From contig OZ014411.1 in assembly GCA_963965975.1 (NCBI GenBank), positions 14,834,501 through 14,898,500 on the forward strand: a stretch of DNA of 64,000 nt. Reading direction: 5' to 3'. Numbering within the stretch: the first letter of the stretch is position 1; the number at the start of each line of letters is the position of its first letter. This DNA comes from Xestospongia bergquistia. Lineage: Eukaryota; Porifera; Demospongiae; Haplosclerida; Petrosiidae. Below, in pieces: positions 14,097 through 64,000 of the stretch. Under the pieces are notes generated by a model, which had not been told where the DNA came from, did not search any database, and saw only the letters and a program-made list of their open reading frames with translations. The translations under genes were made by a program, and so were the position numbers.

Positions 14097-14187
14097 TATT
14101 TCTATTACTTTTACTATTACTATTACTGGCTGAATTCATAGTAATATATTACTATTACTATTACTTTGAAGTCTATTACTATTACTT
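14097..14187. repeat. (TTACTA)n simple repeat cluster
   Basis: Repeated CTATTACTATTAC words occur on both sides of a short GGCTGAATTCATAGTAATA segment, next to AGGCCTGGGTCAATTACATAGCAATGTAATC. The latter resembles sub-terminal sequence of hAT elements and may mark the downstream end of hAT remnant 2 (inference). Confidence 0.6.
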
Positions 14188-14448
14188 CATGACAGGATTA
14201 AGATTTGTATTAAATCAAGCAATTATAACATCACTAACATGTCCATCAGTGTGGCAGATAAGAAAATTAACTAGGTCAGCATCCAAGCTCACCATTGCCT
14301 ACTTAATTTAAATGAATGGGCAGCTTAAGAGTACTGTAGTAAAGTTGCATTAATTAATTGTATTATTGACACATTATCTTTTTTTTAAAATATATTTTAT
14401 TTTAACTAAACTTTCAAATGACAAAATACCTCAAGATCAATGTTAGAC

Positions 14449-37000: not shown

Positions 37001-40000
37001 TACTAGCTACTAAGCGTATGGCCAGACTGATGATGCAAATTTCAAAGTTTGCCCAGTAAGTGTTATAGAGTGAAATTTATACTTCAATATGTAGTTTATT
37101 TAATGTTCATAAACAATAATGATGTTCTGAACATTACAAATACAAGTATTTATACCTGTAATTTTGGCCTGTTATCAATGACAGTAGTACCATACCCTGA
37201 GCAATGTACTATAATGTATTACATTCAGTTTGAACATAATTATGATAATATTTCTTTTATAGAGATGAAGATAGTGATGTCAATTCTAAAGGAGACTTTA
37301 TCGAAACAGCTAATCTTATTGTCAAAGACAGTAAGGAGGTTGCTGAAATAGCTACTAAAGTTGCTAAACTCTGTACAGACACACAACTGAAAAATGTAAG
37401 TTATAGAGTTTGATAATAAAAACATTCATGTATAGAGTATGTTTTAATGTTATATGTGTAGCAAGTAGTTTTATAATTATACATTATGAGCACTTCTTAT
37501 ACGAATTAATGGAATCTGTAATTTTATTCACACCTTAGTTTGGTCATTTTCAAACTTCCTGTTCATTCAAGTGTTGTATATTCCTTATAGGCTCTGTCAC
37601 TGGTTATTGTTAATATTTCAACTTGTGCCACGCAACTCAAAATTAATGTTGGTGTGCATGCAAGAAGAGGAGATGGTAAGCTATAAACTGTGGAGTATTA
37701 GTGTAAAACCATTGTTATAACCTAGAATGGGAGTATACTTATTGACCAAGATAATATATTCCTCATACCTGATAGTATCATAGAATAGACTTAGTTTTAA
37801 AAGGTTTTAAATACATGCTATTGATGAAAGAAACTAATAAATAACTTAAATACTAACATGTGGTCAAAAGCAACTAACTTATGGCCAAGCTTAATGTACC
37901 AGTTAGTAACAAATTAATTAAGAATAGGTGGATGGATACCTAGAGTCTGCATAAAAAAGTGAAGTAAAAGTATTTAATAAAGACTAAATATAATATATTG
38001 ATAAGTGGGATTTTGATCTCATAGTCACTTTGTCTTGACCCCAACAAGTATTGGCATGATACTTTATGTATAACTTTTAAGTTAGTCTATTATCTTATTC
38101 ATTGGTCAGACATTTTGTAAACAATGTTTTGTTTTATAAAATCTGTTCTTTTGATTCTTACGTTCTTGCAACAATAAAGATCCATGCAGTAATGTTTTCT
38201 CTGACAGACAAGTGAATGCATGCTTCCATACTTGATTATACATGTATGTTCTGATAATAAATTTATGTAATAGCTTTACTGTCTGTCTTGTGCTAAGTTA
38301 CTTAGCAATTAGCTAACCATTACTAGTTTATGGATAAATTAGTGATTACTCATAAGACTAATAAATATTAATCTTCAAACAGACCCAAAAGAAGATAAAG
38401 AAACTACTGAAATTTTGACAATCAATGCCGAGAATCTGATGAATGCTGTGTCTGAAGTAATCAATGTCACTGAGAGTGCTATAATAGCAGTTCCTCCTGA
38501 ATCTCATGCTCAACTAACTGGCCTAACGAGTTGGGTCAAAAGATCAGCTGAAACTCTGCCATCTGACATTCAACTTAGTACTACTTGTCAGTCAGGTATT
38601 ATTAAAGAACTTACTTGTAATACATAATTCATATTGCACATTGTGTTATCACTGAAGACCACTCTTTTGATTCACCAGCTTCAATTTCAAAAAAGCCTGC
38701 TAATGAAATAGGTAGACTATTTATATTTTAACCAAATGCTAACACTTAGTTCCATGCATTTTAGATGATGATAAGAATCCTGCAGGCACCTCTACCAACA
38801 ATGAAGGTTTGTCTACATGTGCATCTAATTGTTGTTACAAAATAAACCCATCAGAAACCACTTCAGTGGTGTCAGAAAAGCTAAGCATAGAAAAAACAGG
38901 TTTGTTATAGCATTCAAAGTACATATGCATCTTACCTAACCTATAAAATTTAACTCCAACTCCATGCATTAAAGGTGATGATAAAAAGCCTGCAGGCACC
39001 TCTTCCAACAATGAAGGTTTGTATGTATGTATACATCAAACTGTTGTTACAGAATAAACCCTTTAGAAATCACTTCCATAGCATTAGAAAAGCCTAGCAT
39101 GGAAAAAACAGGTTTGTTATAGCTTTTAAAAGTACATATGCATCATAGTTAAACTACACATTTTAATTTTATACACTTCAGATGATGATAAAAATCCTGC
39201 AGGCACCTCTTCCAACAATGAAGGTTTGTGTATATGTATACATCAAACTGTTGTTACAGAATAAACCCTTTAGAAACCACTTCCATAGCATTAGAAAAGC
39301 CTAGTATGGAAAAAACAGGTTTGTTATAGCTTTTAAAAGTACATATGCATCATAGTTAAACTACACATTTTAATTTTATACACTTCAGATGATGATAAAA
39401 ATCCTGCAGGCACCTCTACCAACAATGAAGGTTTGTGTATATGTGTACATCAAACTGTTGTTACAGAATAAACCCTTTAGAAACCACTTCCATAGCATTA
39501 GAAAAGCCTAGTATGGAAAAAACAGGTTTGTTATAGCTTTTAAAAGTACATATGCATCATAGTTAAACTACACATTTTAATTTTATACACTTCAGATGAT
39601 GATAAAAATCCTGCAGGCACCTCTACCAACAATGAAGGTTTGTATATATGTGTACATCGAACTGTTGTTACAGAATAAACCCTTTAGTAACTACTTCAGT
39701 AGCATCAGAGAAGCTTAGTATGGAAAAAACAGGTTTGTTATAGCATCTAAAGTACATGTGCATCATACATAAGGTACATAATTTAGTTCCATGCATTTTC
39801 AATGGTGATAGAAATCCTATAGTAAGTATATACATGTGCATCATAGCAAAGCTACAAAATTTACTTTCATACACTTCAGATGGTAATAAAAATCCTTTAG
39901 CCAACTCAACACTTACATAATTTCCTATTCTGCATGTTTCCATTTACAATCTCCTTGAATTAATAAATTATTAAACTATTTTGATTTAGCACATGCTATT

Positions 40001-40192
40001 GCTTTAGTCTAATGTGGAAATTTAGACTAAATTCATTGTTTCTGGTATTTTATTGCATTGTCTGGATATGTTAATAAGTTGTATGTTTTTTATTCACTAG
40101 GGAAGAATGATAGTTTAAGTTACTGGCCTTTGTTGCTGTTGGGAGCTATTTTTGTTGTTGTTTTGGCTTATTTTATATACAAACTAAACTAG
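25036..40192 (+). CDS. Ankyrin-ZU5-Death-vinculin-tail protein with C-terminal membrane anchor
   Basis: About 36 coding exons, about 1,503 aa. The MDQ start exon (25036-25044) is followed by ankyrin exons at 25457, 25911, 27109, 27497, 28110, 28691, 29248, 30546, 30807, 31017, 31708, 32347, 32587, 32801, 33025, 33718, 33950 and 34095, mostly 99 bp and phase 0 (residues about 4-600, e.g. [16 protein letters not shown]-like helices). Then come ZU5 (34338-34900; [15 protein letters not shown]), exons 34974-35105, 35151-35331 and 35441-35599 (Ser/Thr/Pro-rich), a Death-like domain (35681-35998; [20 protein letters not shown]), Pro-rich small exons 36049-36454, a vinculin-type tail (36940-38595), a linker (38658-39732) and the anchor exon 40101-40192, [20 protein letters not shown] then KLN. 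There is no signal peptide, so a tail-anchored, cytosol-facing protein is inferred. Linker exon choice is the least certain part. Confidence 0.92.
25457..34278 (+). other. Ankyrin exon array of gene 1, one repeat per exon
   Basis: Eighteen ankyrin exons. Fourteen are exactly 99 bp (33 codons), two are 102 bp ending CEKK (31708 and 33025), one is 93 bp (30807), and the first is a 93-bp capping repeat. All run phase 0 to phase 0, so any exon can be gained, lost or skipped without a frame change. Introns show blockwise duplication: the 31708-32347 pair and its intron reappear as 33025-33718, and the introns after 27497 and 28691 match each other. The consensus end is ADPNICNK followed by GTCAGT or GTTAGT. 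Confidence 0.9.
31143..31615. mobile_element. hAT-like MITE with TIR CAGGGTTTCATTT
   Basis: Starts CAGGGTTTCATTT and ends AAATGAAACCCTG, perfect 13-bp inverted ends. The flanks ..TGTAT and TGTAT.. give a probable short target duplication. The interior has G and C runs and the phrase GGGGGTCTGGAGGCATGCTC, which resembles a widespread marine-invertebrate repeat; a related piece lies near 62365. There is no ORF. It sits in the intron between ankyrin exons 31017 and 31708. Confidence 0.85.
36940..38595 (+). other. Vinculin/alpha-catenin-like tail domain encoded by four exons
   Basis: Exons 36940-37055, 37263-37395, 37591-37675 and 38383-38595. The start reads [20 protein letters not shown] against [20 protein letters not shown] in human vinculin (known sequence). 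Next come [20 protein letters not shown] against [20 protein letters not shown], then [17 protein letters not shown] against IPTISTQLKILSTVKAT, then [20 protein letters not shown] against [20 protein letters not shown]. The collinearity over about 150 residues is strong evidence for the vinculin tail fold. That fold binds F-actin and acidic lipids in vinculin; binding here is inference. Confidence 0.9.
38765..39732. repeat. Five tandem 207-bp units, each carrying a 42-bp and a 30/33-bp exon
   Basis: Units begin after CAG or AAG at 38764, 38974, 39181, 39388 and 39595, spaced 210, 207, 207 and 207. Each has an exon [10 protein letters not shown](T/S)NNE (38765-38806, 38975-39016, 39182-39223, 39389-39430, 39596-39637) and a microexon (A/V)(L/V/S)SEK- or [10 protein letters not shown]-like (38867-38899, 39082-39111, 39289-39318, 39496-39525, 39703-39732). 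Junctions are phase 1. Middle units are almost identical. The result is a hydrophilic linker of about 25 residues per unit between the vinculin tail and the membrane anchor. Degenerate further units lie at about 39797 and 39879. Confidence 0.85.
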
Positions 40193-42243
40193 ACTGTGAA
40201 CTTAGTTTAATACTTTGATTTGTGTCATCAAGTATTTTTTTAAATTACAAATATTTACAAAACACAAGCAAGTAATGACAGATAGGATAATATCAAGACA
40301 ATGACATAATTGCAAAGAGCTTGATGAATGATTTGGAGGAAGAAAGCGGGAAAGAAAGCACAGCAAAAGCAGTAACTTGTGCAAAATGTACTACACCTCC
40401 AAGAAACTAGTCTTGTTTGGAAGATGCCTTTGGTTTATTTCAGGTACGTTCCTGGGCAAATGATAATGTTTCTTTAAAATTAGAAACCAGTTCTAAAGAC
40501 AGATGTGCTGTAAAAGCTAGTACCAAAGTAACAACTAATCAGAACAAAACTGGCAATAATATAAAGAGGCATATATAATTAACTTCCACTGAAAAGATGC
40601 TGTGTTTAAAACTTTTTATTTGATTGTCATGCGTTCGTAAGGATACAGATATAATGAACTTAGCACAATATGATAATAATGAAGCTTACTATAGCTATGT
40701 ATGGAAAAGAACACTCATTAAAGTTTGATAAACATCTGCTAATTGTCCTTAGAGAATTTTGACATTGTAAATAGCTGCTGCTTTCCCACCTTCCCAGGAC
40801 TTGAATGAGTGTATTTACAACCATCCTAGCTACTTCTAGGCTTGCTGATTGATGCCTTTCTTTGAAGAGTAGGTGTAATCTTCTCTTTTAATTTTGTCTG
40901 CAATTACAGAGTCCCTTATATAAAAGCAGCTCTGTTGACAGCACCCTAGTTCCTAAATATCATAACAGCAGTGACCAGACTGATATTGGAGTGAAAACAG
41001 CTTATTGATATGTACACACCTTGACAGAATGGGTCAGTTTTGCTTTGTGAAATGTTAATCCAAATCACTAAAGGTGCATGATAGCTGTCCAGGGTCAATG
41101 CATGTCAAGGAGATGTCACCCCAGCCCCACTTTAGCGCTATATAGTGGGGCTAGCCTTTTGTAATAGATACTATGTTATGCACATGTGGAGGAAAAGGGG
41201 GAATAAAGCTAAGGCCATTCTAACATTTCAAAAATAATAGCCACCATTGAAGATGTGCACAGCCTTATGTAGTGATGAAGAGCTAAAGCATGACTGAAAG
41301 ATTCATAAGGATATGAAGAAAGGTATTCCTTGGCTAACAACTATGTAGACAGCATGGCTGAGTTAACCTAAATAGGACTACAATTCATTTTTCTTGCAGT
41401 AATGGCAGTCTTTTCATCTCGTAATCTTGGCCTTTGGGCTGCAGCTTTAGTGAAGATAGTTTAAACTGGAAGGACAGTGTGTCTATTTCCATGCCAGGAA
41501 ATGTTAATAAGGTGCATGGACCCTTTATCATTGAGAGACAAAAAGAACTGCTAACTGTAAGCAAATCTGTAAGTGTTTGTATAAACACAAGATACATAGA
41601 GCCAAACTTGGGGCTCCCTATGAAGTGAAACTAATGCAGGTAGTGTAGGGCATGTTGGATATTGTGAAAAGTTTTGGGGCAAAGCCTAACCCAAAGCACA
41701 GTGTAAATTCAAGAAACACTTGGCCATTTCAGTGCACAGTTATAGCTCTTCCATATGAATTAGGATGATCATGTATGCATTTATGAGGTTAAGGGTCATC
41801 TGATGTGAGGTTTTGCTTGACATCAAAGGTTAGAGAGAGGCAAAATGCTGATATGTACTTGGCGATGTATTCTGGTAGCACTATTGAGTTCTCTCCCACA
41901 GCTCATGTTTTACTTGATGACATAGATTGCCATTTTGTTTTCTCTATTCCTTTTTTACTTAATATTATTTTTTAAATGACTTAGTATTTTTAGACTTTTA
42001 ACAATTATTAAAGCAAATTGACCTACATATTACTAGCATTGAAATGTTCATGCATTACACCCTCAATTTAAATAACTTCTATTTTAATTACGTGATCATT
42101 TCACCATTGTCGTTACCATTACCTTATATTTACCTTAAATTAATAGCAATAGTTTAATAATAATTATTTTGCAAATAAGTTCATGAAAATTTGATCATGT
42201 ATTATTTTAATTGACAAAGTTAGTGTTATTGTTTTTACTATAA
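40193..42243. other. Intergenic region between the two ankyrin paralogues
   Basis: No gene recognised. A 9-bp-arm hairpin AGCCCCACT/AGTGGGGCT lies at 41123-41152. Short frames at 41385-41628 overlap on both strands and are unsupported. The 5' end and first exon of the second ankyrin gene should lie here but could not be identified. Confidence 0.5.
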
Positions 42244-45200
42244 AATGACAGTCTAATTAACTCTGTTGAGAAGGGAGATTTGTCTGGTGTAGAATATGCT
42301 CTCTCAAGAGAAGCTAATGTAAATGCTACAAATAAAGTAAGTTTATTTTATTTATTGTACAACAGAATACATATTTATTAATTACTTAACTAGTCTAACT
42401 AGGTTTTTTTTGAATGTTAGGAGTATCATTAATTAATTGTTTCTCTGCTAACTTTGGAACTTGGGATCCACTTTGGTTTCTATAAAAATCCCTAAATATC
42501 ATACTAAGAAGCTGAGACAAATATCTTAACTATTGTCACTGTTTAGTTGATAATTATCCAGAATTGCCAGACATTGTATACTTACTAGCTTTATGTAACT
42601 TTTATGGGATGTATATATGTTTGTACTCTTTGTGTAATAAGATAGGTGATAATTTAATTGTTTTTACAATAGATTGGATGGGCGGGCCTTCATATTGCAA
42701 GTTCTGAAGGGTATACAAACATTGTGGAAGTATTAGTCAACCATGGAGCTAACATTGATATTGGTATTAAGGTACTTCAGAATATGAAATGTACATAAGC
42801 ATAGTAAAAACACAACAAATGTGTACTAAAAACAAAGGGAAACCATTGCATAATTTCTAAATGTATGTAATACAACATTGTCATTTTGTTTATTATAATG
42901 TTTTTTTTCATACTTATGGTGCTATAATCATTTGTCATTTGAATGTGTCCTTTACATTAAATATAATAGTCGGTAAGTGTGATAATGCAATAATGTTGTT
43001 TGGTTTTAGTTTACTTGTTTTTTGCCTCCATCTTCATGTTTGCTATGATTACTTGTCATCTATATGTGTCCTTTACAATATAAAAGCGTGTAAGTGTGAT
43101 ATAATGTAGTGTAATTTCTAATTTTGTTTGATCCAATGTTCTCATTTTGTTTACTCTATTATTTCTTTTTTTCAAATTAATGGTGATGTAATAACTTTTA
43201 TGTCCTTTGCAATATAATAGGATGTAAGTATGATATAATATACTGTAATTTGTAAGTATAGTCAATACAACAATATCATTTGGTATACTGTATTATATTT
43301 CCCTATTTTATGATTCTGTAATAATTTGTCATCTGAATCTGTCCTTTACAATATAATAGGAGGTAAATGGGATATAATATAGCATAGTTTATAATTTTAT
43401 TTACTATATTTTTATGTTCTCTTTTACTTTATTATTAATTGTTCCACTTTGTACTAACTTATGTTAATGTGTCCTTTACAACATAATAGATGGTTAGTGT
43501 GATATAAATTAGTATAATTTCTTAGTTTATTTAATGCATTGTTATTATTTCGTTTACTCCATTATATTTTGTTTCCATATTTATGATGCTGTCATCCTAA
43601 TGTGTGTTCTTTACAAATATAATAGTTTGTAAGTGTTACATAACGTAGTATAACATTATTCATTGCATTATTTTCATTCTGTTTGCTCTATTATTTCTAT
43701 TCCCTCGTTTATGTTGCTGTTATTACTCATTATCTAAACATATATTCTTTACAATATAATAGCATGTAAGTATAATATGATGTAGTATGTTTTCTAATTA
43801 ATTGTTGTCATTTTTTACTCTATTTCTTCATCATTTATGCTATTGTGAATACTTGTCATCTCATTATATCATTTACATTATAATAGGAGGTAAGTGTGAT
43901 ACATTGAAATAGAACTTCTAAAGTATATTCAATGCATTACTACCATTTTTGTGTACTCTATTATTTTTTTTCACCATTTATGGTACCATGATTGCTTGTC
44001 GTCTGAATGTGTCCTTTATAATATAATAGTTTGTAAGTGTGATATAATGTAACATATTTTTTAAGTTTATTAATTGTATTGTTGTCACTTTTTTACTCTA
44101 TTTTTTGCTTCCACATTTATTGTACTCTGATTGGTTGTCATATGAATGTGTCCTTAAAATAAAATAGGAGGTAAGTGTGATAAAAATGAACATACTTTTA
44201 ATTTTATTTAATGTAATATTTCATTTTATTTACCCAGTTATTATTTTTTAATTTCTATATTTATTATATAATGATTGTCTTCTGAATGTCTCCTTTAAAA
44301 TATGATAGGCTGTAAGTGAGATATACTTCAATTTAATTTTGATGGGTTGTATTTCTTTTCTCTTTTTCTGTTTCCCGATTCCTCATTTATGGTACTGTAA
44401 TTATTTGTCATCTGAATATATACATGTCATACAATAGGAGGTCAGTGTGATGCAATGTAATACAGTTTCTAAGTATAATCAATGGACAGTTGTCATTTTC
44501 TTTACTTATTCTTTTTTCTTTATTTATGGTACTGTGATAACTTTTATTTACTTTTGGTAGTGGGTAAGTGTGCCATATGATTTAAATGTATTCAATGCTT
44601 TGTTGTGACTTTGTTTACTCTTATTATTTTTTTGATTCTAATTTTATGGTGCTGTAATAACTTGTCATATGAATGTGTGTTTTATAATAGTTTGTAAGTG
44701 AAATACAACATACTATAATTTTTAAGTGTATTCAATGCATTGTTACTTTTTTCTTTAGCTTAATATGATTTTATTTCATGTTCACTATGCTGTAATAATT
44801 TTTCATCTGAATGTTTCCTTTACAATATAATAGGAGGTATGTTTGATATAATGTAATATAATTTTTAAGTTTATTCATAATGTTGTTGTTTTGTCTATCC
44901 TATTTTTTGTTTCACATATACTGTGCTACAATTAATTGTCATTTGAATCTATTCTCTGCATTAATTATAATAGAGGGTAAGCATGATGTTATATAATGTA
45001 ATTTCTAGGTTTTTTTTAATGCATGTTGTCATTTCAATTTTCTCTACTATTTTGTTTCCACAATTTGGTGTTCTGGTTACTTGTCATTTGAATGTGTCCT
45101 TTGTAATATAATAGATGGTAAGTGTGATATGATGCGGTAATGCATTGCTTTCATATGGTTTCCTTAATTAATTTTTTTGTTTCCATGTTTATGGTGCTGT

Positions 45201-48200
45201 AAATGCTTGTTATCTGAATATATCCTTAACAACATATAGTCAGTAAGTGTGATATAATGCAATATAATTTCTACATTTTTTCAATGCATTGTTGTCATTT
45301 TGTTCACTCTATTATCTTTATTTTTGTTTCCATAATTATGGTACTGTGATTGCTAATTGTCTAAATATATCATATACATATAATAGCGAGTAAGTTTGAT
45401 ATAATGTGATGCAATTTCTAACTTTATATTCAATATATTGTCATTCATTTATTCTATTTTTTGCCTCCAAAATGATGTTGCTATAATAACTTGACATCTG
45501 ACATGTGCCCTTTACAAATATAATAGGTGGTAAGTATCATGTGATGCAATATATTTTATTCAATACAATACTATCAACTTGTTTATTCTTTAATTTTTTG
45601 CATCCACATTTATCTGCCTCAATAAATAATCATCTTAATGTGTCCTTTATAATGTAATAGCCAGTAAGTGTGATGCAATATAATATTGTTTTAATTTCTA
45701 TGCATATTTATTGTATTGTTGTAATTTCATTTTTCTCTGTTATTGTTTCTTTTCATATTTACGGTGCTATGGTTACTTGTTATCTGAATATATCCTTTAC
45801 AATATAATAGCCAGTAAGTGTGATATAATGTAATATAGTGCCTAAGTTTATTCAATGCATTTTTGTCATTTTATTCACTGTATTTTGTTTCTGCTTTATG
45901 GTGCTGTAATAACTGGTCATCTCATTTGTCTTTTACAATGTAAAAGCCGGTAAGTGAGGTATAATGTACTGTATAGTCTGTAAGTTACATTGCTGTCACT
46001 TTCTTTATTCTATTTTCTTTACACTTCCACATTGACTCTGCTATTATGACATGTCATCTCATATGTCCTTGATAATTTGATAGGAGGTTAGTGTGATATA
46101 ATGTAATATAATGCCTCAGTTTATTGAATGCATTGTTGTAATTTTAATTACTCCATTATTTTTCGACATTTGCTGTAATCACTTATCTGGATTTGCTTTT
46201 ATACAATATATCAGTTTGTAAGTGTGATATAATGTAATGTAATTTCTAAGTGCAAGTAATGTATTTTTCTAATTCATTTTATTTTTCTTTCAACATTTAT
46301 GGTACTGTAATATTTTGTTATTTGAAAATGTCCTTTACAATGTAATAGGAGGTTAGTGTAATATAATGTAATTTACTTTTAAGTTGATTTGATGCTTTGT
46401 TATCATTTTCTTTTCTCAATAATTTATGTTTACATTTGATGTGACTACTTTTCATCTGAATATGTTGTATACAATATGATAGCAAGTATGTTTGAGATAA
46501 TATAATTTATTACTTTCCTTAATGCATTTTTGAATTTTTTTTATTACTTTCTTTTTCTAAATTTATGATGCTGTGATAATTGTCATCTGTATGTGACATA
46601 TACATTATAATAGCTTGTGAGTGTGATATAATTATTATGATTTCTAATTTCATTCAATGCATTGTTTTCATTTTCTTTATTCTATTTTTTATTGTTTCAA
46701 CATTTATCGTGATATAATAACTTTTTATCTGAATGTGCTTTACAATATCATAGTTTGTAAGTTCTATATAATGTAATATGTTTCCTAAGTTATTCAATAC
46801 ATTGTTGTTGTTTATTTACTCATTTATTTTATGTTCACATGTTTGCATGCTTGTGATAACTTTTCCTCTGAATGTGCCTTTTACGATATGATAGTTTGTA
46901 AGTTCCATATAATATTGTATGTTTTCTGAGTTTATTTAATTCAAAATTGTCACATAATTCTTCTCCATTTTTTGTTACCATATTTATTGTGCTGTGATGA
47001 CTTCTAATCTTGAATATGTCCTTTATAATATAATAGGGAGTAAGTCTAATATAATGTAATGTATAGTTTCTAAATTTTTTTGTTGTATTGATATCATTTT
47101 GTTTCTGTATTTTTATGTTTGCGGTGCTATAACTTTTCATCTTAATATAACCTTTGTACTATAATAGATTGTAAGTATAATAAATGTAATATATATATAT
47201 TCTATGTCTATTCAACACATTGGTATTATTTTGTTTACTCCATTAACTTTTGATTTTCTCATTTCTGGTGCTGCAATAACTTGTCATCTGAATGTTTCAT
47301 TTACAATATAATAGGGGGTAAGTGGGATATGATATGATCTATAGTTTCCAAATTTATTGGTTGTATTGCTGTCTTTTTGTTTACCCTATTGTATTTCTTT
47401 CCACATTAATTGTGCTATAATACCTTGTCATCTGATTATGTTTATTGCATATAATAGGAGGTAGGTGTGATATAATGTAATAGCATTTATAACTTTTTAC
47501 ATTATTGTTATTTTGACTACTCTATATTGTTACTGGATCCACATTTGCTACGCTGTAATAACTCTTAATATGTTTTTTCATTATAATAGGTGGTAAGTGT
47601 GACGCAAAGTATTATAATTTCTGTGATTATTAATTGCAATAATGTCAGTTTTATTAGTTTAATATTTTTTTCACATTCATGGTGCTGTTATTACTTGCCA
47701 TCTGTATGTGTTCTTTACAATATATAACAGATTGTAAGTGTGTAAAAAGTAATGTAAAGTTTCAAAAGTTTATTCCTCACATTGTTGACATTTTATTTCT
47801 CTTTTTTTCAAAATACTGTGTTGTAATGCCTTGTCGTATGACTGTCTCATTTACAATGTAATAGCGGGTAAGTGTGATTTAATGTAATATAAATTCTAAC
47901 ATTATTGAACGCAGCATTATCATTTGTTTATTCTATTATTTTTTGTTTTAAAATTTATGGTGCTGTAATAACTTGTTATTTGATAATGTTCTTTAAAATA
48001 GGCGGTGAGTGTCATATAATGAAATAAAATTTCTTTGATTATTTCATGTTATCATTTTGTTTTTTGTATTATTATTTGGTTTCAATGTTTATGGTGCTGT
48101 TATTAACTATCGTCTGAACGTGTCCTTGGCAATATGCTAGATTGTAAGTATAATAATATAATATATTTTCTATGTTTCTTGAATGAAATGTTTTCGTGTT

Positions 48201-51200
48201 ATTATTTTATCATTTTTGTTTCCACTTTTATGGAATTTCATCTGAATGTGTCCTTGACAATGTAATAGTCGGTTAGTGAGATATAATGTAATTTATGGTT
48301 TCAAAGTTAATTTGTTGCATCATTTACATTTTGTTTCATCAATTTGTTTTTTCTTTTCTCATTGACTCTGTGGAAATAAATTATCATTTGAATGTTTCTT
48401 TTACAATATAATAGTCAGTAAGTATGATTTAATGTAATTTATATTTCTAAGTTAATTCTTGTTGTTATTTTGTTTACTTTTTATTTTTTGTTGTTGTTTT
48501 CACATTTACTGTGCCATATATACTTATCACCTGAATGTGTCGTTAATGATATAATAGGAAGTAAGTGTGATGTAATGTAATATAATATCTAATTTTATTC
48601 GATGCATTGTTGTTATTTTCTTTACTTTATTATTTCTTTTGCAAATTTATGGTGCTATAACAACGTATCATTTAAATGTGTCCTTTATTATTAAAATAGG
48701 CTGTAAGTCTGGTATAATGTAATCTATACTTTATTTCTTGCATTGTTGTTGTTGATTTTATTATTATTTTCTGTTTCCACATAACTGTGCCATGATAACT
48801 TGTCTTCTAAATGTGTCCTTTTCAATATACTAGGCAGTAAGTGTGATTATAATGTAATATTTACTTTCTAAGTTTATTTGTTGCATTGTTGTTGGTTTTT
48901 TTTACTCTATTTTTTTATTTTCACATTAACTATGCTGTAATATCTTGTCATTTGAATGTATCCTATATGACACAATAGTCAGTAAGTGTGTTTTAATGTT
49001 ATATACCGTAGATCGGGAAACTTTCACATTACAAAAGTTTCATGTAAAAAATTTACATGTTAAAAAAATTTCAAACATAAGAGGCATTTACGAAATTTAT
49101 TAACCCTATTTATTTCAATGTGTAATAATGTTCATTTAATTTATTTTCGTACATTGTCTAATGTTTGAATTTTTTTTAACAGCGAAACTTTCCCGATTTA
49201 TGGTAGTTAAATTCTAATTCTAATTGATTTTTTTCACTTTTATGTTGCTGTATTAACTTGCTATCTGAATATGTCCTGAATGATATAATAGCGGGTTTGT
49301 GTGATATATTGTGGTATAATTTTTATTTTCTTTATTTAATGCATTGTTGTCATAATGTTTCTCTATTGTTTTCTTTTTTGAACATTTACATTGATGTAAT
49401 AACTTGTCGTCTATTGTTTCTTTATGATCAATTAGCCAGTAAGTGTTATAAATGTAGTGTAAATTTCTAACTTTATTCAATTTGTTATTGTTGTTTTATT
49501 TACTCAATTTCTTTTTGTTTCAACTTTATCTTGCTGTAATAACTTGTTATCTAAATGTTTCCTGGACAATATAATAGCGCGTAAGTGTTACAGATTGTAA
49601 TGTACTTTCTAATTTTTATGAATGTAGTTATGTTATTTTGTTTACTGTATTCTTTTTTCATTACCACTTTACATTGCTGTTATTACTTGTCATCTGAATA
49701 TATCCTTACAATATAATAGACAGTAAGTGTGATATAATGAAATACTATTTCTATGTTTAGCAATGTCATTTATTTATTCAATCATTATTTTGTCTACATA
49801 TTTATGCTGCTGGGATTATTTATCATCTGAATATGTCTTTACAATATAATAGACGGTAAATGCGATTTAATATAATTAAGTTTCCTATACAGTGTTGTCA
49901 CTTTGTTTACTTTGTTATTTTTATATTTTCATATTTACGGTACTGTGATTACTTATCATCTGAATATATTCCTTACAATATATTAGCAAGTAAGTTTCAT
50001 ATAACATAATGTAATTTCTCATTTTTTCAATGAACTCTTCTCATCTTGTTACTCTATTTTTTTGTTTCACATTTATGATGTTGTCACAACTTTTCATCTG
50101 ATTGTGTTCTTTATATTATAATAGGAGGTAAGTATGATATTATGTAATATAATTTTTATCTTATTCAATATATTGTTTTCAATTTCCATATTTTATTTTC
50201 GTTTCCACATTTATGAATCTATAATAACTTGTCATTGTTTGTTACCAAAAGATAGGCTGTAAGTGTGATGTTATGTAATAATATTTAACTTTATTCAATA
50301 CGTGTCATATCGTTTACACTATAATTTTTGTCTTTCCTCATTTTTGTTGCTGCAATAACCTTTCATCAAAATTTCTTGATTATGATATATTAGTTTGTAA
50401 GTGTGATATAATGTAATATAATTTCAAAGATTATTCAATGCATTGTTGTCATTATTTTTTATTTATTAAAATTTTACTTTGCTGTAATGACTTCTCATTG
50501 GAATGTGTCCTTAACAAAACAATAGGATGTAAGTGTGATATAATGTGGTGTAATTTGTAAGTAAATTAAAAATATTGTAGTTGTTTTCTTTACTCTATTT
50601 TTTTCACATTAACGGTGCTGTAATGCTTGCTGTCTAAATATATCCTTTACACTTTAATAGCGGGTAAGTGTAACATAGTGTAATATATTTTCCAAGTTTA
50701 ATTACTGCAATAATGTTACATTCACTCTATTATTGTTTTATTTTCACATCATGATACTTTGACTATTTCTCATCTAAATGTATCTTTTATGATATAATAG
50801 GCGGTAAGTGCATTGTAATGCAATAGAATTTCTAAGTTTGTTTAATGGATTGTCTTTACTCTAAATTTTGTTTGTTTCCACATTTACGGTTCTGAAATTT
50901 CTTGTCATCTGAATATATCCTTTATGATATAATAGGTGGTAAGTATAATGTAATGTAAAATAATTTTTAAGTTTGTTCAATTGATTGTTTTCATTTGTTT
51001 ACTCAATTTTGTTTGTCTCTACATTTATTATACTATGATTACTTCTCATGTTACTATATCCTTTACGATATAATAGACGGTAAGTTAAACATAATGTGAT
51101 ATAATTTCTAAGTTCATTCAATATGTTTTTGTCATTTTGTTTACTTTTTTGTCTCCATATTTATAATACCATAATAACTTGTGATCTGAATATATCTTGT

Positions 51201-54200
51201 CATCTGAATATATTTTTTACAATATATTAGAAGGTACGTACGTGTCTTACAAAATAACAATTTTTAAGTTTGTTTAATATAATATCATCATTTTCCTCAA
51301 TTTGTTATTTTTCTTTCCACACTCATGATGCTGTAATAACAATATATTAGGAAGTAAGTGTGATATAATGTTGTAAAATTTCTAACATTATTCAATGAAT
51401 TTTTGTCAACTTATTTACTCTTTTTTTCGCATTTATGGTACTATAATAACTTGTCATCTGAATGTGTCCTTTATTCAATAGTTTGTAAGTATGATGCAAT
51501 ATAATACATGTTGTAAAATAATAAAATTTATCAATGTATTTTTGTCATTTTCTTTATTCTATTTATTTTATTTCACAATTACGGTGCTGTAATAACTTGT
51601 CATCTGAATATGTCCTTTACAATGCAATAGTCAGTAAGTGTTATATATGTAATGCCATTTTAAAGTTTATTCAATACATTGTTGTCATGTTGTTTACTTC
51701 ATTATTTTTTTCTTTTCAATTTTACAATAATGTATTAACTTGTCATTTGAACATGTCTTTTATGAAATTATAGTCGGTAAGTGTTATGTAATGCAATATG
51801 AATTCCAAGTTTATTCAATGCATTGTTATCATTTTCTTTATTATATTGTTTTTGATTTCCACATTTATGATGTTGTGATTGCTTGTCATGTGAATATATC
51901 CTGTACAACACAATAGCGGGTAAGTGTGATATAATGCAATATAATTTCTAGTTTATTCAATAAATCATTGTCAATTTGTTTACTTTATTATTTTTGGTTC
52001 GATGTTGTTGGTGCTATAATGACTTGTCATCTCAATGTGTCTTTTATAAAAAAAATTTAGCGGGTAAATATGATACAATTTAGTTAAATACCTAAATGCA
52101 TGTAATGTGATGTTTCAATTTTGTTTATTATCATCTTTTTTAAAAATTGATTTTGCTGTAATAACTCATGTTCTGAATATAATCTTATATGATATAATAG
52201 TGGGTAAGTGTGATATAATGTGATATTTATTGTTTATTTAATGTGTAATTGTCATTTATTTGCTCTATCTTTTTATTTCCACAATTATGTGCTATGATTA
52301 CGTCTTATATGAATGTGTCATTTATAATGTAATAGCGGGTAAGTTTGAGATAAATTCAGATAATGTAATGAAATTTTTAAATTTTTTCAATACCTCGTCA
52401 TTTTGTTAACTCTTATTTTTTCCTTTCCACATTGACTGTGCTATAATGACTTAACACCTGAATGTGACCTTTACATGTAATAGAGCGTAAGTGCACTATA
52501 ATGTATTAAATTTCTTAAGTTTTGTAATGCAAGCTTGTGATTTTGTTTACTTTATTATTTTTTGTATTGTAAATTTCTCATATGAACATGTCCTTTACAA
52601 TATAATAGGAGGTAAGCATTGTATAATATAGTTTCAAATGAAAATGTATTCAAATTAATTTGTGTTTTGTTTACTCTATGTCTTTTTTGTTTCTACATTT
52701 CTGATTCTATGATTATATGTTGTATGAATGTGTCCTTTACAATGTAATAGCCAGTAAGTGTTTTTTAGAATTATGCAAGTTTATGGTCTGGCATGATGTA
52801 ATTTTAAAATTTATTAGTTATTCGTATTCATGATAAAGTACTTAAACTTTCATAAGTGATCATACTGTGGTTTGATTAAATGCTTTGCCAGCCTTCCAGT
52901 TTGAGTTGTACTTTCTTTGAGAGTGCTTTGTTAAGCATAAGTGTGGTTGATGTTACTCACATTTTGTTTAACTTGAAATAATGTTGTCAATCTTTGTATT
53001 TTTACTAATGTACTCATATAATACAGTGTTAGTTTAAAAATGTACACCTGTTACGATATATTTTGTTGCTTCACATTAATTGATTATTATCATATATTTA
53101 GGAGGGATCTACTCCTATCATGTTAGCAGCAGAGAAGGGACTCAAAGATATTGTTTTGATTTTAACACAGAAAGGAGCTAATCTAGATATTATTAATGCA
53201 GTAAGTGTTAATTTACATATGTTACATTATAAATTCTGTATAACTGAATATTAAGATGTGTTTTGAAAAGATAGTCATCAGTAGCAATCTTTTGATAATA
53301 AAGGTTGAATTCTTTTCTTTAAATGATAATAATTCGATATCAGAATAAGGATGGGATACAAGATAAAGTGTAATTTTTAATAGCATATTTATTGACTAAT
53401 TTTCATAATTATTATTATTGAATATTAACTGATGGATAAATATAAAAATGTTCATAAATTTAATGATCAACATAATATGGTAAGATGGTATTATGATAAT
53501 ATAATATCATATTATTATGTTATAACATGACATAATAGGTGTTGACACAACTGTAATAGTCAAGGCATTGATGCAACACATGAGTTGTTTAGCTTTGAAA
53601 ATGTCTTTGTAAATTTCTGAAAATAGACTTATTGTGGAACTATGACAATGGTTGTCACAATAACTACTTGTATCTACCTCCTATTGAGTATCAACTAAAT
53701 AGGAAGGTGTTTGTCTCCTTCATTGAAGTGGTACATTTCTTTTGTTTTTAAGTTTTTATTGTGGCAAATAGATATACAGTTTAAAGTTAGATCTACAAAT
53801 TGTGGGCTACTATTTATTTTAATGATAATAAAGCTGAACTATGTCCACAATTATTTGTGTGATATAACACTTTTAGAGAAATATCATTGTATAACTAACT
53901 ATTTTAAGTGTTGTTATTATGATAACTGCAGATATTGTTTAAGTGTTTGTAACTATTGTGCACTGTTTCTTTCATTAGTAGTAAAGCTGTGCATTAATAA
54001 GGTTTTCTATATACGTTTTAAGGAATATAACTAAGTACCCTCACTCTACAACATTTATACTTTCAATAAAGTATAATGCCTTTCCTGCTTAATTTAGAAC
54101 AAATTCAAAAGCCTTGTATTTATGATATTGTGATCTTTTGGTGATCTGGAATAGTATCAACTCTCATACAATATCTCGGGTTATTTCCAGTTTGTCTAAT

Positions 54201-57200
54201 CCCATTGCGTCTAAGGACTGGCTGTATAGTCTCGGATACCTTCTTTCTTAATGATGATGTTATAAATGCAAGTTTTTTAATAGCCAATAGAGACAAAAGT
54301 ACCATGTTGCAAGGCAGTGAGGTTCTATGTTCAACCACCTCACAAAAAAGTGTTCTTACATATTGTATTAATGAAATAATTATTATGACTACAGTAATAA
54401 CAGAAATCTGGGAACTTGAAATACTAATATTCTCCGTTTGCATTTGTTTCTATCTGTTGATACTAATTATTCATAAGAAAATGTCTCCTTAAGAGTAGCT
54501 TGTAATTCTAAAAGCACTCAAATGTGAGGTAATAATTATTTAAATTGTTCTATATCTGTGAAAATGATGAAAAATCATGACTTTTCACACTTATTGTTCT
54601 GTATAAAAGGAGAAGAAATATAAACAATTTAACATTTTTACCAACTTCTACTGTGATGTTTAGAAACATTGCTTTAGCCTACAGATCAGTCACAGAAAAT
54701 CTTAAGAAGGAAGACTGACAAGTATTGAAATCTTCTAATGTTTTTTTGGTGGGATACTTCATGTTTTCTGACAATGTATTTCAATGGACAATCTGGACAT
54801 CCCTACATACATAGGCACTGCTATAGTGTGTCTGATATTGAGAATATCACATGGAAGTAAGGACATGACTGTAGTTGATAGATGAAGTGACATAAACAGC
54901 TAAATGTTATATTTTTGATTGGTTTTTAAATATTTCCTACTTATAAACTATGTAGTATAGGCCTATATTCTTATGTCGTTGGAAATGTCTTATTGGTATA
55001 ATTGACAGTTGACAATTGTATTTACAATAGGCTGGCTGGACAGCCCTTCATTATGCAAGTTATGAAGGACATTCAGACATTGTTGAAACATTTATTGACT
55101 CTGGAGCTGATGTTAATGTTGAAACAAAGGTAATTCAGATAATGAGAACAAAGTTTAATCTTTAAGCTGTGTGAACAGATGGAAACTGATAGACAAGACT
55201 TAGTATAGACATTGTAATGATACAACATTACTGTACCTGACCTTACCAAGTTTATCTACTATAATTATGCTACATTAACAATGGGTAGTTGTCCAAAGTA
55301 CTAGATCATCTTTTTAATATTTACTGTAAACATAATAAGCACAGCAAATATTTACCTTATCAAAAAGACACTATATAATTCCTAAATATATGTTCATTGC
55401 AATGTTATCATTTTTAATTCTATTGTTTTTGTTTCTATATTTATGATGATATAATTATCTGTCATCTGAATGTGTCATTTACAATGTTATAGAAGGTAAG
55501 TATGACATGATGTATAATATAATTTCTAAATGTATTAATGGAATCTTGTCATTTTCTTTATCTTTTTTGTTTCCATGTTTATGTTGTTCTGATTACTTGT
55601 CGTCTGTTTATGTCATTTACAATATAACAGGAGGTAAAGGTTAACTTAATTTTCTAGGTTTATTCAATGAATGCATTATCGGCATTTTGTTTACTCTATT
55701 TTTTCACGTTTCCAAAAAGCCCATAATGTCACAAATGAATAAAAATTATGCAACTTTATGATATAGTGCCAAATAAAAGCCTTTTTTGAGATTTACCATC
55801 AAAAAAAATAAATTTTATTCAAGATAAAGTACTTAAAGTTCCAAAGAGTTCAGGTTCATTTACTGTAGATTGTCTAGTGGTGTGCCTTCCTTCAAGTTTC
55901 AATTCTGGTTCCTTTATTAGTGTGGTTTGTTTGACATAAGAGTGGTTGATGTTACTCATGCTTTGTTTGACTAGATGTAATATTGTTTATGTTTGTAATG
56001 TTACTAGAGTACTAATGTAGCACAGTGTTAGTTTAGAAAATATACAACTGTTATGACATATTCTTTGTTCATGTTTATGTGGTTGTTAAGGATGGGTCTA
56101 CCTCAATCATATTAGCAGCAAAGAAAGGACACAAAGGTGTTGTTATAATTTTAATGGAGAATGGAGCCAAAGTAAACCTTAGCAACCAAGTAAGTGTTTG
56201 TGTACATATGTTGTATGACAAACCCTGTATAAATGAAGATAAATGTAGCAAACACACTTTTACTTGAAAGAGAACTAAACGTGTAATACTATTATAATAA
56301 TGGTTGAAGTATTTCCTTTGAAAAAAATTGTAAGTAATTGAGAGCAAGAAATTTCTGAAAAAGATTTTTTAATGTCTAATGATCACCTATCTCAATAACC
56401 GACCATCAATCGTCAATGTTAAATTTTTGTCTTATCCAGCAACACTACCATTTTCTAGTTATATGGATTCACGACAAACAAGACTCTATTTGAAAATTCA
56501 TCCTATAATTGCTCTGGAATATACCAATTTCACAGTGAAGGCTGACTGTTGCTACTGATTGTAAAAGTAGTTGCACTGTCTGTGGAAGGGTGTTGCTGTA
56601 GAATGCTGGAATTATAAGCAAAGAAGCAGGATAGTGTAAAGCTTCAAGCTTTGACATGTCACATATATTGTCATAGCACTCATTGTTAGGGTTAAAGAAA
56701 CTCATTAGGCACTATATACGTTGGCAATTAAAGGATGTGGTTGCTTCTGAAGGTAGCTTGCAACAATATATTGAAATGATGATACTCTTGTATTATACTT
56801 TTATATCATGATGAAGCAGAATAGGAAACATCAGCTATGATATAATTATATTTTTCTGAACTGGACTTGACTTGACTTGCTCATCATTGCTTAGAATTGA
56901 TTACAGAAACATATAATTATATCATAGCTAATATGAAATTTTCCCAGTCAGTAGCAAAATGTATACAAAGTAAGCAAAGTCAGTAACAAACAGTATGAAA
57001 ATAGACATTATCTTAAAATCTGTTGTCTTTTACTACTGCTGACAAGGCTAAAACATCAATCTCAGACTTGCTGGTCAATGCTTAGAACTGATTTCTTATG
57101 CATATGGAAGATTCTTAAGACTTTGGTAACCTATCTAAGTAATTATTGCATTTGACTTATGACCAGACATATGATGAAGCCCTCATTAAATATAGTCATT

Positions 57201-60200
57201 ATTTTAACTTCAAAACACATTCAGAGCCTCAAAAGAACCATTGACATCTGATATTTAATCTTCAGAACAAGCTTTATTGCACCTCTGATATTGTCCTCTT
57301 TCATCTTGAAAGAGACTCTACTAAAGAACTGAGGCTAGAATTCTGGCCTTTTCTAGACCTATGTTTGGTGGCTAGACGAAAGTAGAGGATATACTTTCTC
57401 ATTCAACTGTTAATTCACAGCACTGGCAGTAGGCCACCTCTGGTCACCCTATGAATAACTCTGAAACAACATCCAGGGAAACACAGTAATCGATCTCATG
57501 ATGAGTGGTCATTGATGGTTGTCACCACTACAAATATAAAGAAAGTTTCGTTATTACAGACTCCCTGTAGGCCTGTGGTATAATCTTGAGGTTCTTAAAT
57601 AAAGACTTAAGGCAGTTAAACGTAGTTGGAATTGATAGTGTGCACTAAGATGTGGTAAAAATCATCAGTATCACCATGATGGTCACATCTTTGGACTGAC
57701 AACAGCTGGGAAGACAGAACAGGCAGTGCAGCCGGTGTTTAGCAAGAACCATAAAAGCCACTGTGAACCAGATCATGAGATCTAACTGACCCTGCAGTCA
57801 TGAGCGAGAAAACTCAGCAACAAACTGTGCTGTACATAGTAGAAATAGTAGAAGGCAAACCACTAGAGTCATCCATTTTATTAAGAACATATTAAATATA
57901 CATAGAGCTATTACAGCCGAAATAGCAAACATGAATATGAATATATATAACACAGTGCACATTGTGTATGGATTTGTTGTATATATATTAGTATAATATT
58001 ATGAAACATCATAATGCAGTAGAGTATATAGTGGATATAGTAAATTTGTAACATACTTGATGTTAATGTTGTACTATATAGTCATTGTGACCTCTAATAA
58101 TTACTTTCACTAGGATCAGATGACAGCTCTACATTGGGCCTCAAGAAATGGTCACTCTGAGATAGTCCAGTTACTCTTACATTACCATGCAGATCCTAAT
58201 GTTTGTAACAAGGTCAATCAATTGATGACTTCTCTTATTGATAATCTACTTTAACACAGGATGGTAATACTGCATTACATATTGCCTGCAAAGAAGGTCA
58301 TACAAATATTATACAATCCTTGCTATCTCAAGGAGCAGACATTTCTATAAAGAATAATCAGAGTAAGACTTCATTAGATGAATGTTGTGATACAAACACT
58401 GGTGAACTTGCTAGTCTTTTCAATGAGTACAATCCAAAACGAGGTGAGGTATTGAACAACAACTATGTAGCACTCCTACTTGTTTGATTTGTTATTATTT
58501 AGTTTTGGAAGATGTGTCTAAATGGAATATTGAATACCTCAATGAAGAACAGGTTTTTGAGAAACAAGAGTATGGAGTCAAGTTTGTCATTCCACCATCA
58601 TCAGTGGAAGTAGGGCAAGAAGTCAAAACTGAAGTTAATGTAGTTGCACCAGAGGAGTCAGAGATCATCCTCCCTCCTGATGTTGAGGTTGTTAGCTGTT
58701 TCTACAAGATTGAAACGACAGGAAAATTCTCTAGACCTATTGAGCTCCATCTCCAACACAATGTTGAGCTCAAATCACAAGAGGAATGTCAACAACTTGC
58801 TTTTATAACAGCTAAAGGACCACCACCTTATAAGTTTGAACTTACGCCAATTGATATCGATCAAGAGTTCAAACCTAATGACAATTGTGGTGTTTTAAAA
58901 GTTTCAGAATTTTCTGTGTTTGGTGCTGTTATGCGAAAGGTAAAAGCTGTTCTCTGTCTGCAACCATCTTTCAGCTATACTTTGACGGTATTCTTTAAGC
59001 ATATCTTAAAATCTAGTTGGATAATCCAGGTAGTGATCACGAAGAACCTTGGACCTTTTCTTAAGGTAGTCACTTAAGTAATGCAAAATTTCAAAATGCT
59101 TGTTTAAACTGTGTTAACACTATTCTCATTCTATAATATTGCACACTGTTCTTTCTGTTCTAGAGGGTGAATACAGAGAAAGTTTTTGAAAATTGGAATA
59201 AGTTACAACCCATTTCCTTCCACTTTGACCCAATGGTCAACAAAGTGACATCTTCATTTGCTAATGACCGATATGACATCAAACCACTCAAAAAGCCCAA
59301 TCAAGTAAAATTTTAAACTGTTTTTATATAGCCCTATTCCTTTTTTGACAAGGTTACAAAGGAAAATATTGATAAAAGTCATCCTGATACTGTTCTACTT
59401 TACTTAAAGTTTGAGGCCACACTTAAAGCTGATAAGGAGGAACTTGTGGATTTAGAACTCATATTTAAAGGATTGAGAGATGAAGAAAGTTTAATTATTA
59501 GTAGTTATGAATTAAAATCAATACAAGGTATGATATATAAAGAGATTTATTTGTACTGATTTTAGTTTTGCTATCATATAGACAAAATTATTGAGTCCAC
59601 TTGTCCTTCAGTCACTAAACAAGTAGAGGTCTTATCTCGAAAAGAAATTCCTAATGTTTTATTAGGTCTGTTGACAAATTTTTTACTGATTATGATACAA
59701 TTCTCCTTACCTCATTAGGTAAAGAGCCTAAGAAAAAACACCTAATGACACTACTTCACCCAATAAAGAATAAGTGGAATATTATCGGTGAACAACTTGA
59801 AGTGTATTATGGTGTTATAAAGTCTGCTGAATACAATGTAGCATATGACAATACCACAAAACTCTCAGAAGTCCTTCAAGTTTGGAAAGACAAGAAAACT
59901 TGTGAAGTGTCTTGGAAAATGATCATTACTGTTGTAGATGAACCTCCACTTGAAGACAAGAAAGTAGCTGATGAGATGTGTGAATTTTTAGCAAGATCAG
60001 ACATCAGGAGTGAATATCTCTCTTTTAATCAACCTGGTAAAATTAAATTATAATTGAAAAAATAATCCTATGATTGTTTTGAAATATCTAATTTTACTAT
60101 AATATTATTAGCAGCTATGTCTATAAAAAAGTATACCTATAGAATGGTAAAAGAATCGGCAGAGAAGTAAGCTGGTGAGAAGATTCACCAGACATACTCA

Positions 60201-62532: not shown

Positions 62533-64000
62533 TCATTGCAACTTTTTTAACTGGTCAATATAATGTTTTATGCCATGACCACCAGCACTTTGAAGAAAAT
62601 ACAGTTCCAATGGTTTATACAGACCAATCCATGAACCTAGTGTTGTAGCATGACCATTGGAAATACTATCACCATCAATAGTGATAACATATGAAGAGAT
62701 TGCATGAAAATAGTCTGAGAATTTCTTGTCACAAGTTGGTGGGCATCCATAAACATACATAGTCAGGTGTAATTTTTGATATTTCTTAGAGAGATGATAG
62801 GTTAGTATAGATGCCAAAGCACCTCCAAGACTATGTCCTGTTATAAAGAGCTTCTTTTTGCCAACATGTTGTTTAACATAATCTTTAATAGAAGTATAAA
62901 CAGCATTGGATGCATCAACAAAACCTCCATGGCAATATACTTGACTATTGTCGATTGCTTTTTTAATAAACCGTGCATTGGTCAAAATATTTTTGTCGGA
63001 ATAAATATTTGTACCTCTGAATACGACAACAAGAGTAGTACTATTAGAGGCTATAAAACCATTTGTGTCAGTGTGACTATCATATATCTGTTTTTTAGCC
63101 TCCAATTTGTATTTCTTTACATTTTGCTTGACTGTGTTGTATGGTTTGTAGGCTAACTTAGACAGATATGCAAATGTAAGTGCTTCTTGTACGTTATATC
63201 CTGGAATGAATTTCGGAATTGGTTTAGCAGGAGTGGCAGATACTGTTGCTTGAATTACATTAGAAGCAAATCCTACTTGTCGATAAGCCTTACTTATCCA
63301 ATCAAAGATGGGTCCCACATAGCTCACCATGGTTGTACCTGCCTTCTTTTCTTTAATGTAACTGAGTTTTGTTTTCTTGACATAACCAGGACCAACCCAT
63401 TGCCATCTCAGATAACCTTTTGGACCAAAAGAGATATCAGACCTAAAAAAATAAACATTATATCAACTGATTTTATTAAGAGTCTACGTATTTTCATTAC
63501 TTGTTTTTAAATTTAATTTGAACCTACATTTTTGGATAATATAATCCCAGCCATGCCCACCGTCCAGAGAGAGCTGACTTTGTATTAACAACCGGGTACA
63601 CATATGTGTAACTATAATCAAGTGTAATTGTAAGAGTGATTTTGCTTGGCTCTCTAGCACTTAGGGCCTGTGCCAATGTTGGTTTGTTCCCAAGATCAGG
63701 ATACAGAACTTTTGGCTCAAGTTGATCATCTAATTGTAGACCTGGTTTCTTGATATAATCAGGAAGACTATCTTGTTCCAATATAGGAAGAAGAAGCTGT
63801 TGTTCTTGCCAGTCAAACTGGGACCACAGCCTGTTCAGGTCTTCTTGAGAATACTGAACTGATCCGAATGATTTCTTGTTAGTATTCGAGGTTTTCACAG
63901 CCGTTTCCAGAGACAAAAGAAAGGCCTGTAGTTTAGGCTCAAGTGGAGGCATATAGTCGGCTTCTTCAGCAATTTTTGCTGCAGATTCATCATTTTCATA
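62533..64000 (-). CDS. Class-3 (fungal-type) lipase family protein, 5' end outside the window
   Basis: Alpha/beta hydrolase predicted to cleave ester bonds of acylglycerols or phospholipids. Two minus-strand exons: 63528 to beyond 64000 (open to the edge) and 62533-63442, joined in phase through an AT|G Met codon (donor GTAGGT, acceptor TTTTTTAG). The first exon gives SLPDYIKKPGLQLDDQ and LDYSYTYVYPVVNTKSALSG, a Trp-rich N-terminal region before the lipase. The second has the Lipase_3 core: TTLVVVFRGTN, then the nucleophile elbow ITGHSLGGALASILTYHL, then DGDSISNGHA with the likely acid, and GGHGIKHYI with the likely catalytic His. About 300 aa of lipase domain, no break seen. There is no signal peptide in the visible part. 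Confidence 0.9.

Follow-up and report, generated by a model that had tools for sequence, protein, structure and literature searches.

One intron of an ankyrin-repeat gene in the sponge Xestospongia bergquistia appears to carry 71 exons of a single codon each, and a stretch of the encoded protein may be spelled residue by residue. The intron lies within a 64,000-nucleotide (nt) stretch of DNA (contig OZ014411.1, positions 14,834,501 to 14,898,500 of the forward strand), which we call the window and whose own numbering is used throughout. An initial annotation had proposed that the triplets are candidate one-codon exons with maintained splice sites. On the basis of constraint at the splice positions, compensation between triplet and donor, and searches with profiles of the unit flanks, we consider it well supported at the sequence level that these are real one-codon exons whose splice sites are under selection. 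The array and its immediate surroundings comprise the following features.

42673 to 42771, + strand: ankyrin exon R1 (99 nt, phase 0; IGWAGLHIASSEGYTNIVEVLVNHGANIDIGIK), with the weak donor GTACTT; identified by open frame, splice sites and the Pfam family Ank
42772 to 42969, + strand: first array intron, from the R1 donor to the first triplet, with homology to the unit in its 3' part
42970 to 52753, + strand: array of 71 one-codon microexons, the first being TCG at 42970 and the last CCA at 52751
48999 to 49210, no strand assigned: insert resembling a miniature inverted-repeat transposable element (MITE, a presumptive name), with imperfect inverted arms at 48999-49036 and 49173-49210, within one array intron
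52754 to 53101, + strand: last array intron, up to R2; paralogous by alignment to the end of intron 55130-56090
53102 to 53200, + strand: ankyrin exon R2 (99 nt, phase 0; EGSTPIMLAAEKGLKDIVLILTQKGANLDIINA); identified by splice sites, frame and Pfam Ank

The array and its splice sites

The 10.3-kilobase (kb) intron between R1 and R2 holds 71 units of the form AG-NNN-GT, whose triplets run from 42970 to 52753. A scan of positions 42772-53102 returned 73 such matches in a donor- and acceptor-like context, two of which were off register (45977 and 52534) and were removed. Spacing between units is 117-154 nt, the sole exception being a 313-nt step from 48979 to 49292 that contains the MITE-like insert, and the units on both sides of this insert are intact. 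The 69 internal introns that lack an insert have a mean length of 134.2 nt (range 114-151 nt). These results bear out the regular series of 71 units described in the initial annotation, as well as its statements that all 142 splice dinucleotides are intact (GT and AG are each present in 71 of 71) and that the array is flanked by phase-0 exons. A whole-unit profile likewise recovered an unbroken series from 42.9 to 52.8 kb. The same search found two further units at 55.4-55.7 kb. The array is indeed housed in one ankyrin intron as had been claimed, but the pattern is not confined there, because units also occur at 55493 and 55631 in a second intron. Beyond both introns, the unit profile matched the window only twice and weakly (E = 0.36 at 37054 and E = 8.8 at 11657).

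Given that the pattern scan demanded AG and GT, we also searched with flank-only profiles from which the splice core had been cut out. All left-flank matches with E < 0.001 fall at known intact cores, three of them (44507, 51142 and 51304) being partial and displaced by a nearby indel. For 45 of the 82 left matches, the flank halves come together at exactly 12 nt, and AG and GT are both present in every one of these 45; the remaining left matches are weak, or are shifted by a few bases at the model ends. Left-flank matches with E < 0.001 thus disclose no broken unit that the pattern scan had missed, in keeping with the earlier claim that the spacing leaves no room for a broken unit outside the MITE-like insert.

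Every unit (71 of 71) presents GT-AG introns with consensus donor and acceptor sequences around a short exon, as in a U2-type cassette microexon. The dinucleotides are intact throughout despite a mean mismatch of 21% between the array introns and their own consensus. Alignment columns carry 2.0 bits at each of A, G, G and T, and 0.06, 0.01 and 0.35 bits at the three triplet positions. The excess over base-specific retention is clearest at donor G+1, donor G+5 and the acceptor G (z = 4.1-4.6), and retention is also high at the T of the GT, at +4, at +6 and at the A of the AG (z = 1.4-2.2). Nine interior columns are mildly over-retained (z = 1.3-1.9). Some mildly high columns around TCATCTGAATGT, approximately 20-30 nt before the intron end, may mark a branch site, which would lie about 24 nt before the AG. 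Gaps are missing from the first nine alignment columns, occur once in the last eight and are numerous in mid-intron. The acceptor is preceded by T, to form TAG, in 67 of 71 units, and the donor is mostly GTAAGT, with 54 perfect and 17 deviant examples.

The deviant donors reveal a relationship with the triplet itself. Where positions +3 to +6 are not AAGT, the triplet ends in G in 15 of 17 units, versus 19 of 54 units with perfect donors (Fisher p = 1.7e-4). This compensation remains when GAG triplets are set aside (p = 0.01), and A at position -2 follows the same direction (p = 0.008). It is absent in four control stretches and at the first triplet base. Ordinary ankyrin exons of the array-bearing gene and of the other, paralogous-looking gene in the window exhibit G at -1 in 13 of 13 deviant donors and in none of three perfect donors, as counted over 16 non-redundant boundaries caught by the pattern, which do not represent every exon. 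Three of the original 19 rows were shifted readings and were dropped; keeping them gives p = 0.02. Because the compensation is the same as that in ordinary exons, it ties each triplet to its donor as the exon of that donor, and this marks the donors as what appear to be real 5' splice sites.

Content, order and ancestry of the codons

Judged from their sequence, the triplets are not decayed intron. They have a G+C content of 54% versus 25% in the flanks, which agrees with the initial annotation, and our recount also matches its figures of 29 triplet types, residue numbers of E 12, R 10, S 8, F 8, A 6 and P 5, no C, N or Y, and no stop codon. The middle base, which is little involved in the splice consensus, is G or C in 36 of 71 triplets, versus 25% in the flanks (p = 4e-6). 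Within triplets, CpG occurs 17 times versus 13.9 expected, and the observed-to-expected ratio is 0.30 in introns and 0.11 in exons (triplets versus introns, p = 1e-5). The lack of stop codons has a chance probability of 0.007-0.019 by three reckonings and is weak evidence on its own, in part because TAG would also create a tandem acceptor.

The bases of a triplet are not independent of one another. Not one of 20,000 positional shuffles attained the counts of GAG (10) and TTT (8), and the presence of eight TTT and no TTG is notable because G is the better last base for a donor. CpG decay as the source of this dependence was rejected, since the dependence persists in the 34 triplets without CG, CA or TG (0 of 10,000 shuffles). 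Shared descent of equal triplets is also unsupported: among 119 same-triplet pairs, the flanks are no closer than with shuffled labels (p = 0.35; TCA alone, p = 0.06). Given that units with the same triplet are unrelated in their flanks, equal codons probably arose independently or were kept by selection. No clustering of equal codons was found along the array at lags 1-6. A search of the window for a spliced copy revealed no direct R1-R2 junction, and twelve-mers of the joined codons occurred there at chance level (1 of 202).

When the 71 codons are read in order, their hydrophobic power is elevated at 95-105 degrees (p = 0.004), and of the 13 angles compared, 90 and 100 degrees are the conspicuous ones (p = 0.006 and 0.004, respectively). 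Hydrophobic pairs at spacings i,i+3 and i,i+4 number 16 versus 9.3 expected (p = 0.005), and the order also includes a PPP run (p = 0.012). No helical period was found in unit spacing, in donor deviation or in five other classes of triplet bases. We regard this alpha-helical hydrophobic periodicity as suggestive. Hydrophobic residues placed at helix spacing across neighbouring units would favour joint translation of those units.

The introns of the array form a family whose tree is nearly star-like, with terminal branches of 17.8 versus internal branches of 2.1 and support of at least 0.9 at only 2 of 66 nodes. Neighbouring units are barely more alike than others (lag-1 identity 0.691 versus a mean of 0.683), which lends no support to recent tandem duplication. 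Given this tree, the slight likeness of neighbours and the 21% divergence noted above, the units most likely share one ancestor and then diverged independently. Comparison of the unit ends by eye disclosed no clear terminal repeat.

A second exon pair of the same gene contains a short version of the arrangement:

55031 to 55129, + strand: ankyrin exon R3, paralogue of R1
55493 to 55495, + strand: microexon AAG (Lys), inside intron 55130-56090, which is paralogous to the array intron
55631 to 55633, + strand: microexon GAG (Glu) in the same intron
56091 to 56189, + strand: ankyrin exon R4, paralogue of R2

The R3-R4 intron can be aligned at both ends with the array intron, with 76-80% identity between the flanks of the two. 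The left halves of array units have a pairwise likeness of 0.77 as measured with a similar aligner. Because these values are close, the duplication of the exon pair and the expansion of the units could date from similar times, with 71 units in one intron and two in the other. A comparison aimed at the array unit nearest to the two units of the R3-R4 intron was not decisive.

Proposed serial splicing and competing explanations

The explanation we place first, though tentatively and at somewhat short of an even chance, is serial intron-defined splicing in which most or all codons are joined as an insert at an ankyrin repeat boundary. Each internal intron of approximately 134 nt has its own donor (mostly GTAAGT), a possible branch site and a TAG acceptor, and could be recognized by intron definition. 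These introns are of ordinary length, and with mostly perfect donors they present no visible barrier to successive splicing. They would be removed in turn from 5' to 3', such that after each step the exon end, now composed of the old exon plus one codon, would meet the next GTAAGT donor. The process would resemble recursive splicing, yet one codon would stay behind at each step. Most or all codons joined in order would place as many as 71 residues between R1 and R2, and the two microexons of the paralogous intron would add the two residues K-E between R3 and R4.

Such inserts would sit at the beta-hairpin ‘finger’ of the ankyrin repeat boundary, which is a region commonly involved in binding. 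We infer actual inclusion, the serial order, the helical form of the insert and a role in binding from the arrangement described above. The fuller version of the proposal, wherein 72 serial splicing reactions build a 71-residue helical insert codon by codon while skipping also writes ordered subsets, is slightly less probable again. The initial annotation had listed the constant joining of all 71 codons as an alternative, and the periodicity, noticed post hoc, favours the joining of most or all of them.

Several considerations weigh against this explanation. Inclusion of even one 3-nt exon in messenger RNA is something that we infer from DNA, and an insert of 71 residues could be harmful to the ankyrin stack. 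The helical signal was found post hoc, after nine earlier measures of which three gave p < 0.05, and it is weaker by the Eisenberg scale (p = 0.02-0.09) and when alanine is counted (p = 0.03). No helical period was detected for charges, for F alone or for salt-bridge spacing, and the i,i+3/4 test was failed by the ankyrin (p = 0.98) and death-like (p = 0.13) control sequences. The joined peptide has no match in Pfam, NCBIfam or PHROGs, and its best matches in the PDB and in plasmids are at chance level (E = 0.84 and 4, respectively). Codon use also differs strongly from that in the exons of the two genes (z = -12.3 relative to 71-codon samples), as exemplified by CGG, which constitutes 6 of 71 triplets versus none of 1,233 exon codons. 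Such usage is surprising in coding sequence that is old and constitutive, and it disfavours the notion that the triplets are an ordinary exon that has been chopped up.

A different outcome would be expected if each unit could either be used, first as acceptor and next as donor, or be left out. In that case, transcripts would carry varying ordered subsets of the codons, and the ankyrin scaffold, which has an immune-related look, would display variable loops. Any subset would be readable in frame, because all 71 units are 3 nt long, in phase 0 and free of stops. Moreover, a 3-nt exon can probably not hold the acceptor and donor complexes simultaneously, and this lack of room makes skipping likely. 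The triplets cover many residue classes, identical codons recur without shared descent, and the R1 donor GTACTT is weaker than the internal donors, all of which would suit such a device. However, helical periodicity across neighbours is unexpected if neighbours are rarely joined, the strong and uniform donors point to constitutive steps, and limited tests uncovered no clear regulatory pairing or structure. On balance, we judge combinatorial use to be possible but rather unlikely.

Less probable again is that the splice sites are used while codon identity is irrelevant, with only harmless triplets tolerated. A tandem intron family might be kept because, under intron definition, a broken donor leads to intron retention and a premature stop, or the units might allow a long intron rich in repeats to be removed in steps (recursive splicing). 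The clearest excess constraint does fall on splice positions, star-like introns suit a burst of copies followed by drift, and single-residue changes in a surface loop are often tolerated. Free triplets, however, should drift towards the A+T-rich composition of the introns. We simulated drift from one ancestral triplet (61 starting triplets, 60 runs each), and the observed diversity and G+C content were reached together in 0 of 3,660 runs at the intron rate, in 40 of 3,660 at twice that rate and in none at four times the rate or more. Neutral drift is accordingly rejected for the intron rate and for rates of at least four times that value, and is marginal for the doubled rate. The excess of GAG and TTT is furthermore beyond any site-independent drift.

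An origin that is compatible with the other readings, and that we consider doubtful, is that copies of a mobile, introner-like intron split a pre-existing exon of 213 nt, which encoded an old domain, at every codon. Both the star-like intron family and the helical look of the codon order would agree with this origin. Nevertheless, the codon use does not suit the exons of the two genes, and within the window the unit profile finds only the two weak matches beyond the two introns. We also know of no insertion mechanism that yields an exact 3-nt spacing 70 times.

Finally, it is very improbable that exactly one codon is chosen per transcript in the manner of Dscam, even though the array offers many alternative payloads at one place, with fixed splice sites and a variable exon. 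No visible obstacle would prevent neighbouring units from being joined, and no consensus RNA structure was found in 15 aligned and folded array introns. In a limited test of pairing between units and the intron flanks (42772-42900 and 52761-53101), which used half of the units and one block shuffle, differences reached up to 2.6 kcal/mol and no flank window stood out. Thus, the comparison with Dscam made in the initial annotation is unsupported, given the lack of clear docking and selector complementarity in this limited test, of a consensus fold and of any barrier to serial splicing.

Host gene and relation to known microexons

On the + strand, the window contains one gene at approximately 27-40 kb and another at approximately 42-60 kb, and by eye the two look like paralogues. 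The array resides in the second, which has a strong Pfam match to ankyrin repeats and a ZU5 match just above the cut-off (E = 2e-4); its matches to Death (E = 0.018) and FIIND (E = 0.027) are under the curated cut-offs. Its seven modelled exons measure 84 nt, five times 99 nt and approximately 183 nt, with the 5' end lying outside the model. Exons R1 to R5 are each 99 nt and in phase 0, so that one exon equals one ankyrin repeat. The register of Pfam Ank coincides with the exon boundaries, and the best stretch (residues 162-193 of the joined query) corresponds to R5 minus its first residue. The remainder of the gene as modelled is as follows.

58114 to 60038, + strand: R5-R6, a ZU5-like region and a weak Death-like region, assigned by Pfam

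Some other observations were made in and around the two genes. The first gene includes a 207-base-pair (bp) tandem repeat of 4.8 copies at 38763-39900, each copy of which has, by eye, a 42-nt exon-like stretch between AG and GT; a copy that is 64% alike lies at 60615-60694. By eye, this repeat looks like a further case of tandem exon amplification within this gene family. The first gene apparently ends in a single transmembrane segment (40090-40200), and one of its ankyrin introns holds an insert-like stretch with poly-G and poly-C ends (31160-31610), both as seen by eye. Elsewhere, a class 3 lipase open reading frame (ORF) occupies 62536-63462 on the - strand (Pfam Lipase_3, E = 3e-22). ORFs that by eye resemble pieces of a DNA transposase are located on the - strand at 10805-16328, where a DUF659 match at 10805-11281 falls short of the cut-off (E = 0.003) and Pfam gives nothing for the ORF at 14928-15884.

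Ratchet points of recursive splicing are places at which the acceptor just used is followed by the next donor, and they leave no exon. In the array units, too, an acceptor is followed by the next donor, but each would leave one codon. Schistosome micro-exon genes (MEGs) are described as having runs of tiny symmetrical exons whose splicing varies the protein by a few residues (PMC4350168), with exon sizes given as 3-81 bp (PMC10526429). The array is similar in having runs of very small symmetrical exons. However, small exons of various sizes make up most of the coding region of a MEG, whereas here all 73 units of the two introns are 3 nt, are tandem with related introns between them, and are set within an otherwise ordinary ankyrin gene whose seven modelled exons are of 84 nt or more.

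Exons of 3 nt or less have been reported in isolation. RPS24 is described with three consecutive microexons of 3, 18 and 22 bp (PMC12686416), and plant VPS55 with 1-nt exons that have conserved GTRAGT donors (PMC8831610); 1-nt exons are also mentioned for plant APC11. These cases show that such exons are spliced, with one of that size per gene versus 71 in tandem here. Dscam1 is described as having a tandem array of alternative exons at one gene site, with docking and selector pairing for several clusters (PMC8042237). Tandem candidate exons at one place in a gene are thus a shared trait, but those of Dscam1 are full-size and one is chosen each time, while the sponge array gave no clear pairing in our limited test. 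Introner elements and intron gain by tandem duplication are reported to produce families of near-identical introns (PMC4457414, PMC4974935). The array introns also constitute a family, but they stand in tandem, set apart by 3-nt spacers, and in the window they occur in two paralogous introns only.

Among the matches listed from open-access full texts, in several cases the best 12-20 of many papers, we found no long tandem array of one-codon exons. A search for the exact pattern among bacterial and archaeal genome contigs, where an animal gene is not expected, yielded one match, in a Bacteroidales metagenome-assembled genome (L001). This comprises a single 24-nt match (E = 2e-4) with all others at E of at least 0.23 and no array, and is probably due to chance. 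The pattern is absent from viral contigs, a collection in which an animal gene is likewise not expected.

Single microexons of 3 nt or less and the exon runs of MEGs are already known, and what seems to be new is a single intron with dozens of exons that are each exactly one codon long. If the reading of one codon per exon is true, the arrangement would be categorically new, and every codon would be separately editable and separately selectable. Several microexon papers note that exons this small are hard to map, and for this reason an array of this kind, if spliced, would tend to be missed by gene annotation. If its units are indeed spliced, the array would be an extreme case in which nature puts intron definition and the lower limit of exon size to the test, and it would likewise test whether a peptide can be built by splicing one residue at a time.

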